Assembly (NCBI RefSeq): GCF_030295765.1
Contig: NZ_AP027292.1
Span: 1,364,001 to 1,428,000, forward strand
DNA from: Neptuniibacter halophilus
GTDB taxonomy: Bacteria; Pseudomonadota; Gammaproteobacteria; Pseudomonadales; Balneatricaceae
DNA length: 64,000 nucleotides
Reading direction: 5' to 3'
Shown here: piece by piece, positions 14,614 through 20,470 of the stretch
How the letters are laid out: each line of letters opens with the position of its first letter
How positions within the stretch are numbered: position 1 is the stretch's first letter
Notes under the pieces: model-generated
What the model saw: only the letters and a program-made list of their open reading frames with translations
What the model was told of the DNA's origin: nothing
The model's database searches: none
Program-made: the position numbers and the translations under genes

Positions 14614-15402
14614 CTAAGCTTTGGCTTTTTTCCCGAGGCCGGAAATATAAGAGGTCAATACTTCGAGCTTTTCCGGATCGTTATCCACAAACTGAACCTC
14701 AGCACTGACGAAGGTTGTATCCACACTGCGCTCGTTAGCACTCAGGCCGCAGACAAAACCGTTCATCTGCGCCACACTGCTGCCGGAGGCCTGTTCAATA
14801 TCTACAACCACCTGTTCAAGAAGCTGCGGCACCCCCTCTTCCCGTTTAACCACCACCTGCACATTCTGCAGGGTGATCTCTTTAATCGCACAGCGTAACA
14901 CGCCTGAGGAGATACGCAGATGAGCCAGACCTTTCGGTTTTTTCTGCACTTTTTTTGCCGCAGCCGTTTTTCCCGCTGCCAGCATCTGCGCCGCTTTTCG
15001 CCGGGAATCGGCACTGCTCTCGATACGTTTACCGATAAACTTCTTCACTTTATCGATAAGCTGCTGATCTTCAAAGGGCTTACCCATGTAGTCATTCACA
15101 CCGGCCTGAATCGCCTGCAGCACATAATCCCGTTCACCACGGCTGGTCACCATAATAAAGGGAATATCCACGTATTTAGCCTGCTGGCGGGCCCACTGCA
15201 GCAGGTCCAGCCCTGACATGCCAGGCATCTCCCAGTCACACAGGATCATGTCGTACTGTTCCTTACTCATCATATTCCGACCGGCATCCCCATCTTCGGC
15301 CGCATCGATCTGATAATCAGGAAAGTGCTCATGGACTATGCGCGATACGTGGTCCCGAATAAACCGCGCATCATCAACGATCAGCACCTTGATTTGACTC
15401 AT
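14614..15402 (-). CDS. response regulator: CheY-like receiver plus PilZ-like C-terminal domain
   Basis: 262 residues. Residues 1-125 are a receiver with acidic pair D10/D11, phospho-acceptor Asp56 (LCDWEMPG), switch Thr in VTSRG and Lys in MGKPFED. A basic linker (about 130-160: RRKAAQ, AAAKKVQKKPK) leads to a beta-rich domain with PilZ-like layout. The canonical c-di-GMP residues are missing: no RxxxR, and EITLQN stands where D/NxSxxG is expected. So it probably does not bind c-di-GMP and may act by protein contacts. No partner kinase is nearby. Role, perhaps motility or surface behaviour, is inference. Confidence 0.8.
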   Translation of the reverse strand: MSQIKVLIVDDARFIRDHVSRIVHEHFPDYQIDAAEDGDAGRNMMSKEQYDMILCDWEMPGMSGLDLLQWARQQAKYVDIPFIMVTSRGERDYVLQAIQAGVNDYMGKPFEDQQLIDKVKKFIGKRIESSADSRRKAAQMLAAGKTAAAKKVQKKPKGLAHLRISSGVLRCAIKEITLQNVQVVVKREEGVPQLLEQVVVDIEQASGSSVAQMNGFVCGLSANERSVDTTFVSAEVQFVDNDPEKLEVLTSYISGLGKKAKA

Positions 15403-19050: not shown

Positions 19051-19080
19051 GTATGGGGGTAACTATCGGCGGCTTCAAGT
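19051..19080 (-). promoter_or_regulatory. sigma-32 (heat-shock) promoter of clpB
   Basis: Minus strand: -35 ACTTGAAG, about 14-base spacer, -10 CCCCATAC. Both halves match the RpoH consensus (CTTGAA / CCCCATnT). Confidence 0.85.
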
Positions 19081-19116: not shown

Positions 19117-19143
19117 CAAAAAAGCCGGGATATACCCGGCTGT
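19117..19143 (-). terminator. terminator after the roadblock gene
   Basis: Minus strand: AGCCGGG-tatat-CCCGGCT followed by TTTTTT, 18 bases after the roadblock stop and upstream of the clpB promoter. Separates the GTPase cassette from clpB. Confidence 0.85.
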
Positions 19144-19160: not shown

Positions 19161-19511
19161 TCAGGCCAGCATCTGGTCGACTTCCTGTTTCCGAAACTCT
19201 TTTAACAGTTCATGCACATGGCCACGTACCAGCATGACATTGGCATCTTTTGCTGAGAGGCAGATCAATACGACGCCCGGTTTCAGCACAAAGCCGCTGA
19301 GGCGTTTTTCACCAATCTCCAGATGAGCTTCATTATGCTTCGCTTTCAGCTTGGCCACATTGAGAAAAACATAACTGAACGCCTGCTTGGCAATAATTTC
19401 ATGGTTACGCAGTTCGGCCGGAAAGGAAGTCGCAGCAACCTCTTTCCCTTTCAGAATACAACTGCACTCAATCGTGCCCGGTTTGTCTACTTCAGCCAAC
19501 AGTTCAATCAT
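19161..19511 (-). CDS. roadblock/LC7 (MglB-like) domain protein
   Basis: 116 residues, essentially one roadblock/LC7 domain: first strands PGTIECSCILKGKEVAAT, a long central helix, then the strand pair LKPGVVLICLSAKDANVMLV and a last helix. In MglA/MglB pairs the roadblock dimer acts as GTPase-activating partner. The frame opens at 19523, but the second Met (19511) gives an ATGA overlap with the GTPase stop and has GGAG 6 bases upstream, so I use it. Coupled translation with the GTPase implies a complex. Family call is by fold pattern; biological role unknown. Confidence 0.7.
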   Translation of the reverse strand: MIELLAEVDKPGTIECSCILKGKEVAATSFPAELRNHEIIAKQAFSYVFLNVAKLKAKHNEAHLEIGEKRLSGFVLKPGVVLICLSAKDANVMLVRGHVHELLKEFRKQEVDQMLA

Positions 19512-20470
19512 TTGCGGCTCCATTGCAGAAGGTCTGAGGCCTGCTCTTTGACCACTTTGATACTCAGATCTTTGTCAGATACCAAACCTAACGCCTGCTC
19601 TTTTTCAACGAATACAGACAACGTCTCCTGCTGCGGCCCACAGAGCACCAGATCATCAATGTGCCCGAGGAAACCGGCTTTTTTCTCCAGCGCAGCCACC
19701 AGATTAACCATCGACTTCAGCAGGTCACGGCTCTCTTTATGCTGAACATTAGAGCTGATCACCTGACGATCTTCTCCCAGATGCATAGCGCCATTGATAC
19801 CCCGGGTATTCAGTGCCGCATCCAGCAGAGAGATCTCCTCGCTCTGGGCTTTGGCTGCCCCTTCGGCCTCGGCTTCAGCGCCCGGCATTGTGCTGTTCAC
19901 TTCCAGACGCTGTTTCAGCTCAGGCCAGTTGATATTTTTCTCGCGTGCGCCGACCAGTTCCTTCACCACTTTCAGCACTGAGGAAGGATCTCGGGCATCA
20001 ATAAAGATCACCGTGGTAAACAAGCCCATGGTTTTGAGCTCATTCATATAATAATCGTAATCGGGGTTCGCCTGTTCATCAGCATGGGTGACGGCGATAA
20101 TCAGCCGGCGCCGCACAATGAAGTCACGAAACTCTTCCACGTAGAAACGGATATCCTTGAACGGATCGTTTCGGGTGTTATCCACCAGCAGCACCAATCC
20201 CTCGGCATCATGTACCAGATCGCTCATCATCAACTGCCACATGAATTTGAAGCGCTCCTGTCCGGGCGTTCCATACAGGTGCAGGCGGGCACTATCGGAA
20301 AGATCGAGTACGCCATAATCCATGGCGATGGTGGTTTTTTGCTTTCGCCGGATCGCTGAGTCGCTGACATTCGCGTCAGTATCCACGGTTTCGATATCGC
20401 TTAACGAGCGGATCGCGGTGGTTTTCCCTGAGCAAACTGAGCCTGTGAACAGTACTTTATATTCTGTCAT
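19508..20470 (-). CDS. MglA-like small GTPase fused to a C-terminal roadblock domain
   Basis: 320 residues. Residues 1-185 are a Ras/Arf/MglA-like GTPase: P-loop GSVCSGKT (10-17), switch I KTTIAMDYG (45-53), switch II GTPGQERF (67-74), and THAD (128-131) at the NKxD position. An Ala/Glu-rich linker (about 192-212) leads to a second domain (213-320) with roadblock/LC7 pattern (NTRGINGAMHLGEDRQVISS...LVLCGPQQETLSVFVEK). It thus carries a partner-like domain in cis in addition to the separate roadblock protein coupled downstream. Related modules: MglA/MglB polarity switch and the conservon GTPases of actinomycetes. What it controls here is not evident. Confidence 0.8.
   Translation of the reverse strand: MTEYKVLFTGSVCSGKTTAIRSLSDIETVDTDANVSDSAIRRKQKTTIAMDYGVLDLSDSARLHLYGTPGQERFKFMWQLMMSDLVHDAEGLVLLVDNTRNDPFKDIRFYVEEFRDFIVRRRLIIAVTHADEQANPDYDYYMNELKTMGLFTTVIFIDARDPSSVLKVVKELVGAREKNINWPELKQRLEVNSTMPGAEAEAEGAAKAQSEEISLLDAALNTRGINGAMHLGEDRQVISSNVQHKESRDLLKSMVNLVAALEKKAGFLGHIDDLVLCGPQQETLSVFVEKEQALGLVSDKDLSIKVVKEQASDLLQWSRK

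Follow-up and report, generated by a model that had tools for sequence, protein, structure and literature searches.

What kind of switch does a bacterial MglA-like GTPase form when a predicted roadblock domain is fused to its own carboxy terminus and a second, stand-alone roadblock-like protein is encoded directly behind it, and how did such a layout arise? The question is raised by two genes, here called gA and pB, in a 64,000-nucleotide stretch of the Neptuniibacter halophilus genome (the window, meaning the whole stretch analysed), from a marine bacterium. The nearest named records are Neptuniibacter, classified there as Oceanospirillaceae, Pseudomonadota; four named relatives of gA were found, all from this genus and 72–83% identical. 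A preliminary description of the pair had stated no strand; gA and pB are both encoded on the minus strand of the window. The features are as follows.

19508..20470, minus strand: gA, a GTPase with a C-terminal domain of predicted roadblock fold, 320 residues (open reading frame, alignment, AlphaFold2, Foldseek)
19161..19511, minus strand: pB, a stand-alone partner of predicted roadblock fold, 116 residues (open reading frame, AlphaFold2, Foldseek, VIA)
19937..20470, minus strand: G domain of gA, residues 1–178 (motifs, 45-row alignment)
19835..19936, minus strand: variable linker of gA, residues 179–212 (pLDDT, pN, length variation)
19517..19834, minus strand: fused C domain of gA, predicted roadblock fold, residues 213–318 (AlphaFold2, Robl_LC7 matches, hhalign)
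19123..19141, minus strand: terminator-like hairpin and T-run 3' of pB (consensus match only)
19053..19079, minus strand: heat-shock-type promoter-like motif before clpB (consensus match), outside the cassette and marking its downstream border

Reading from 20470 to its stop at 19508, gA is followed by pB, whose start ATG at 19511 shares the sequence ATGA with the TGA stop of gA and whose frame ends at 19161, which bears out the earlier account of a coupled partner of 116 residues. An alternative in-frame start at 19523 would lengthen pB to 120 residues; the start at 19511 is preferred because GGAG lies 6 nt upstream and because the longest possible frame begins there at three loci (L028, L029 and L037). 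Both proteins are under purifying selection. In six comparisons with a pS of 0.75–0.90, pN was 0.04–0.07 in the G domain, 0.11–0.18 in the C domain and 0.22–0.29 in pB, far below pS in all six, so that gA and pB look like real genes. The linker, whose length varies in the 45-row alignment, has the highest pN of the four parts compared (0.29–0.38).

The pair is flanked by a 212-residue upstream reading frame on the same strand and by a clpB-like frame downstream, which we take to be clpB, the name it was given earlier and one that fits its sequence. A terminator and a clpB promoter had been described at this border, and a terminator-like hairpin and a promoter-like motif are indeed found between the pair and clpB. 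Terminator-like sites in the region show no clear excess (3 found versus 1.8 in shuffles, sd 1.4), and the heat-shock-type motif at 19053–19079 on the minus strand is the single match in the window to the consensus, versus 0.02 expected. Stress response was among the roles suggested at first sight, and a link to it through clpB was rejected: the terminator-like site and the promoter-like motif separate the pair from clpB here, and in other genera the pair is located elsewhere, with no clpB seen beside it at L091–L098, L100, L101, L104 or L105 (reading-frame lists, by first residues and lengths). A defence system was likewise rejected, as PADLOC profiles gave no match at E ≤ 0.1. Elsewhere in the window (14614–15402, minus strand) lies a response regulator whose C-terminal ~140 residues lack a clear Pfam match; reading frames resembling it also occur in the G259 and G255 regions retrieved.

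The G domain of gA contains all three of the motifs first noted in it (GSVCSGKT, GTPGQERF and THAD), with the P-loop at residues 10–17, TT at 46–47, GTPGQ at 67–71, THAD at 128–131 and DAR at 158–160. Across the 45-row alignment, which includes the window, no row departs from G15, K16, G67, P69, G70, Q71, T128 or D131, and the invariance of the glutamine and the P-loop lysine makes gA a likely active switch. For Group 3 MglA, the available part of PMC4316618 (Wuichet and Sogaard-Andersen 2014) describes GTPGQ in G3, a G2 in which threonine stands for the catalytic arginine, frequent lack of lysine in G4, DAR in G5 and a distribution confined almost to beta- and gammaproteobacteria; it gives the actinobacterial Group 2 part of the same set (GTPGQ and DAR). 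By its motifs, the G domain of gA carries the Group 3 set, with Group 2 sharing part of it, and has a threonine where Group 1 MglA is described, in the literature extracts available, as having an intrinsic arginine. Among relatives with the fused and the split form, TT is universal (51/51 fused and 69/69 split rows), GTPGQ occurs in 50 of 51 fused versus 54 of 69 split rows and DAR in 47 of 51 versus 41 of 69, and a lysine in G4 is found in none of the 51 fused rows versus at least 8 of the 69 split ones. Beyond the motifs, gA shares with Group 3 a gammaproteobacterial host and a coupled roadblock-type protein (by predicted fold, not by Pfam), but not the single-domain build of about 160–180 residues, as its 320 residues include a second domain. 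Group 3 genes may also have a receiver-like or winged-helix protein encoded alongside; the frames beside the pair here are the clpB-like one and that of 212 residues.

Modelled as single proteins with AlphaFold2, gA residues 215–318 and pB share the predicted element order α-β-β-α-β-β-β-α of the roadblock fold (C-domain helices at 215–220, 245–264 and 304–318; strands at 225–231, 237–240, 273–278, 281–288 and 293–298). The pB model is of high quality by its scores (pLDDT 91.6, pTM 0.84), and that of gA is of middling confidence over the whole protein (pLDDT 75.2, pTM 0.54), with pLDDT below 50 at linker residues 195–212. Rag GTPases are eukaryotic nutrient-sensing proteins with archaeal relatives, and Foldseek searches of the PDB with the whole gA model returned Rag/Gtr-type GTPases at all of ranks 1–12 (the best 12 matches); superposition on Rag gives an RMSD near 20 Å, so the arrangement of the two domains belongs to the model only. 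The matches listed for pB are roadblock proteins or Rag GTPases, and MglB is about as good a match to pB as Ragulator and the Rag C-terminal domains are (Foldseek, VIA). With the gA model, VIA-align listed G domains throughout and no Rag row, and is thus uninformative on the C domain. The carboxy terminus of gA and pB are both predicted to adopt the roadblock fold, in agreement with the preliminary description, which had called each of them roadblock-like from their sequences.

Sequence searches barely detect this fold, and finding it by phmmer and profiles alone was rejected as a route. The proposed profile check failed for gA and pB of the window, neither of which matches Robl_LC7 (PF03259) in Pfam at E ≤ 1, and succeeded for a few relatives (10 of 45 gA rows, best E 0.0036; 1 of 48 pB rows, E 0.0034). 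Gtr1_RagA is matched by 11 of the 45 gA rows (best 0.0017), and is absent from the matches listed at E ≤ 1 for the window's gA. Against PDB sequences, phmmer with pB gave two ribosomal-protein rows only, at E > 1; searching with the pB profile yielded four rows, all weak, among them a single roadblock (7yh1, E 0.17), and the gA profile nothing at E ≤ 1e-8. Separately, long forms of pB (208–254 residues) occur at L021, L025, L053–L056, L075, L077, L080–L082, L084, L085, L098 and L158. They have an extra C-terminal part of about 90 residues with a recurring pattern around a conserved tryptophan, and this part of the L158 protein matches nothing in Pfam or NCBIfam.

Within the window's family gA is matched in 42 of 116 genomes; in 38 of these 116, from five genera (manual row count), the match reaches through the C domain. 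The partner pB is matched in 30 of the 116 and in no genome of genus g98. Outside this family fused genes are rare: of 194 genomes of the order 20 match gA, of 369 of the class 68 and of 398 of the phylum 57, with matches reaching through the C domain in the family's own G000 and G177 alone (order, match ranges), in G000 and in G612 of another family (class, in an open frame) and in G000 alone (phylum, match ranges). G206, with a G-domain-only match in a 329-residue frame, was not counted as fused. Alignments in G310, G540, G365, G478 and G1005 continue beyond stop codons into the region that follows, which hints at a separate roadblock downstream. Apart from the window's genome, 8 of 10 genomes of the genus have two gA genes in tandem; a single gA occurs in G255, in G256 and in the window's genome, where it belongs to copy 1.

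A tree of 120 G domains (51 fused and 69 split rows, with eukaryotic, archaeal and published MglA-group sequences left aside) places all 51 fused proteins in one clade (support 100/99) nested among split GTPases. The clade also holds the unfused L102, which has most plausibly lost its C domain. Roadblock or T2 profiles, partly built from the same loci, match within 2 kb of 61 of the 69 split GTPases, and nothing matches near the other 8. In hhalign the closest match of the C domain is to the roadblock whose gene follows split GTPases (E 5.5e-5, probability 66%, 89 columns; a profile of 16 sequences chosen by gene position), with values of 0.014–0.076 against four other profiles. That profile matches a second roadblock set at E 7e-25, and the C domain reaches only 0.029 against this second set; single hmmsearch matches between the C domain and neighbouring roadblocks are weak (best 0.04). 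For pB, hhalign gave no clear assignment to any of the other roadblock sets. The best match points to a GTPase that was probably joined once to its downstream roadblock gene. Nested as it is among split GTPases, the fused form seems to be a variant derived within bacteria, and its likeness to Rag to be convergence in layout. Direct descent from Rag was considered and rejected, given G motifs of the MglA type and the position of the fused clade among split GTPases in this tree of bacterial G domains.

Is pB the working partner of the fused domain? The neighbourhood survey proposed for the fused form yields 47 distinct adjacent gA–pB pairs (from 48 rows, leaving out L055:3384, a cut copy of L100:9081). 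Five fused rows have no adjacent pB: L057, L104 and L105, from genus g98 and with ample flank, and L060 and L062, whose loci end about 300 nt past gA. The g98 genes, from a genus in which no genome matches pB, indicate that pB is not always needed. Tree distances of pB correlate with those of the G domain (0.89) and the C domain (0.78), with none of 2,000 permutations as high in either case, and the correlation with the C domain given the G domain is 0.49; this agreement partly reflects shared species history. At four Neptuniibacter tandem loci the G domain, C domain and pB each split into copy 1 versus copy 2. In G295:C20 (L127:3811-4179) a stand-alone C domain, with no G domain in its gene, is followed by pB and a sensor, and this genome has other GTPases. 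In G285:C101 (L106:12207-12551) a pB match (E 3.7e-7), whose frame reaches the contig end, comes after a stand-alone C domain, with no G domain in the 12 kb upstream. That C domain and pB are kept together without a G domain at both loci argues, at the level of gene content, that they form a unit.

We therefore favour, at a probability of roughly 0.55, a reading in which a roadblock heterodimer of C domain and pB would regulate the tethered GTPase in cis. It builds on gene structure, selection, the single clade, adjacency and motifs, all of which are observed. The roadblock gene next downstream of a Group 3 MglA-type GTPase would have been joined to it, its product becoming a C-terminal domain attached through a flexible linker; paired with pB in a heterodimer, this domain would correspond to the roadblock layers in Rag–Ragulator and to the two roadblock proteins found in split systems. 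This heterodimer would dock on the tethered G domain and control its GTP/GDP state in cis, most likely as a GAP. Published extracts offer two precedents for hetero-roadblock control of MglA, the bipartite GAP complex of MglB with RomY (PMC9481161) and MglA–MglB–MglC (PMC10329633).

A layout of the Rag type is rather unlikely. Here gA would homodimerize through its C domains, as Rag/Gtr pairs do, with pB as a Ragulator-like scaffold placing the dimer at the membrane or at some other partner, and the roadblocks would be localizers, not GAPs. A homodimer is conceivable because the window's genome holds one such GTPase (at E ≤ 1e-3 gA matches itself alone), and the twelve best structural matches include LokiRagO, titled a homotetramer. 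The similar fit of pB to MglB, to Ragulator and to the Rag C-terminal domains, and the retention of the fused GTPase in g98 without a pB match, also agree with this layout. However, the G motifs are of MglA type, and the two loci that keep C domain and pB without a G domain favour pairing between these two. It is very unlikely that the C domain and pB, like other non-regulatory roadblock/longin proteins, are an adaptor that tethers the GTPase to a target at the pole or the membrane: both evolve faster than the G domain, as adaptors would, and have largely lost Pfam-level Robl_LC7 similarity, but five genera of the family, and a second family besides, retain the fusion, and pB covaries with the G domain (r 0.89).

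For the favoured cis-acting heterodimer, the genes behind pB suggest an input. A sensor gene follows pB in 7 of 18 loci inspected (G177, G263, G264, G291, G293, G295 and G612, the last from the second family), encoding proteins of 394–397 residues with two hydrophobic segments. The L158 and L100 sensors both have a bacterial kinase sensor domain and HAMP above the Pfam cut-off, dCache_1 being above it in L158 only, and both end 7–9 residues behind HAMP without an output domain; the other five are 54–86% identical to L100. No sensor was found in the other 11 loci, the window included (L088–L094, L096, L097, L219 and L220, by profile; L088 was judged from the window and L092 from a reading-frame list), and at L096 a sensor-like match lies in a 945-residue neighbour upstream. 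The L158 sensor has ten matches in the window's genome, all in frames of 546–1593 residues, and no receptor is linked to the pair there. Where a receptor without an output domain lies beside a GTPase–roadblock pair, its signal may pass straight to the roadblock unit, so that a Cache–HAMP membrane receptor would be the likely input in some relatives.

The window's genome also encodes a classical Robl_LC7 protein, in a second cassette of U (450 residues), T2 (210 residues), the roadblock, a PAS protein and a periplasmic-binding fold.

G000:C1 about 3846000-3850200 (L111:6046-10222): U-T2-Robl_LC7-PAS-periplasmic-binding cassette, no GTPase inside

Other families have a split GTPase between U (about 420 residues) and T2 (about 215 residues), followed by a Robl_LC7 protein. 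T2 (L111:7729-8361) weakly matches LAMTOR5, a subunit of Ragulator (E 0.027), and so may be another, hidden roadblock protein. A trans link between gA and this cassette is possible, and in one reading gA would be the displaced GTPase of the unlinked cassette, working with it in trans. All 45 distinct loci inspected in the window's family (62 genomes have U) hold U and T2 with no GTPase between them, and U is present in 38 of 38 family genomes with a fused gA versus 24 of 78 others, and within g98 in 9 of 9 versus 4 of 8 (p 0.03), counts that ignore kinship. Yet 21 family genomes carry U while lacking any MglA-type match, which argues that the cassette does not need gA; in genus g6 it is mainly the C-terminal half of U that matches, and a single clade of fused and cassette-type GTPases is disfavoured (p-AU 0.02, with the label of L013 doubtful). 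We regard displacement as quite unlikely.

Set beside known systems, gA and pB are closest in layout to Rag/Gtr and closest in lineage to Group 3 MglA. With Rag/Gtr and Ragulator/EGO they share a G domain followed by a roadblock domain together with separate roadblock proteins (from the extracts of PMC10933270 and PMC10329633), and Rag/Gtr are the best structural matches of whole gA; they differ in their MglA-type motifs, their single GTPase gene in place of a pair, their one small partner and their bacterial host. Group 3 MglA is alike in G motifs, host group and roadblock coupling, and in the tree gA is nested with split relatives, but here the roadblock is fused to the GTPase, and the available part of PMC4316618 names response-regulator/Robl_LC7 fusions and none of this kind. 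Myxococcus MglA–MglB, with RomY and MglC, likewise combines a Ras-like GTPase with roadblock regulators, and MglB forms complexes with other proteins (extracts of PMC9481161 and PMC10329633), but all parts are separate proteins. The actinobacterial conservons CvnA–D follow a similar logic of sensor, roadblock and GTPase and have GTPGQ and DAR motifs (PMC13343842 and PMC4316618, in part); CvnA is histidine-kinase-like, whereas the sensors found in some relatives of gA end behind HAMP, and CvnD is a separate small GTPase, unlike the fused gA. The layout had been called less familiar. As such it is not, since Rag/Gtr and the Asgard GTPase–roadblock fusions described in the extract of PMC10933270 share it, but for bacteria the description holds: the literature searched on MglA, roadblock, Rag and fusion, mostly open-access and available in part, yielded no bacterial GTPase–roadblock fusion.

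The available text of PMC10329633 likens MglA–MglB–MglC to Rag–Ragulator and proposes an ancient tuning of roadblock-pair contacts by GTPases. One might go further and see an independently evolved, Rag-like nutrient or environment switch in bacteria, in which a Cache–HAMP receptor would act, with no kinase, on the heterodimer of C domain and pB and so on the tethered GTPase, the GTPase of the window's family also serving the GTPase-less cassette; this wider picture is speculative and, taken whole, unlikely. Split relatives, the fused clade, L102 and the stand-alone C domains of G295 and G285 make the steps from separate to fused directly comparable, and, as gA (320 residues) and pB (116 residues) should be easily produced, cis action of a fused roadblock becomes testable. 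Bacteria seem to reach the Rag layout from the MglA side.
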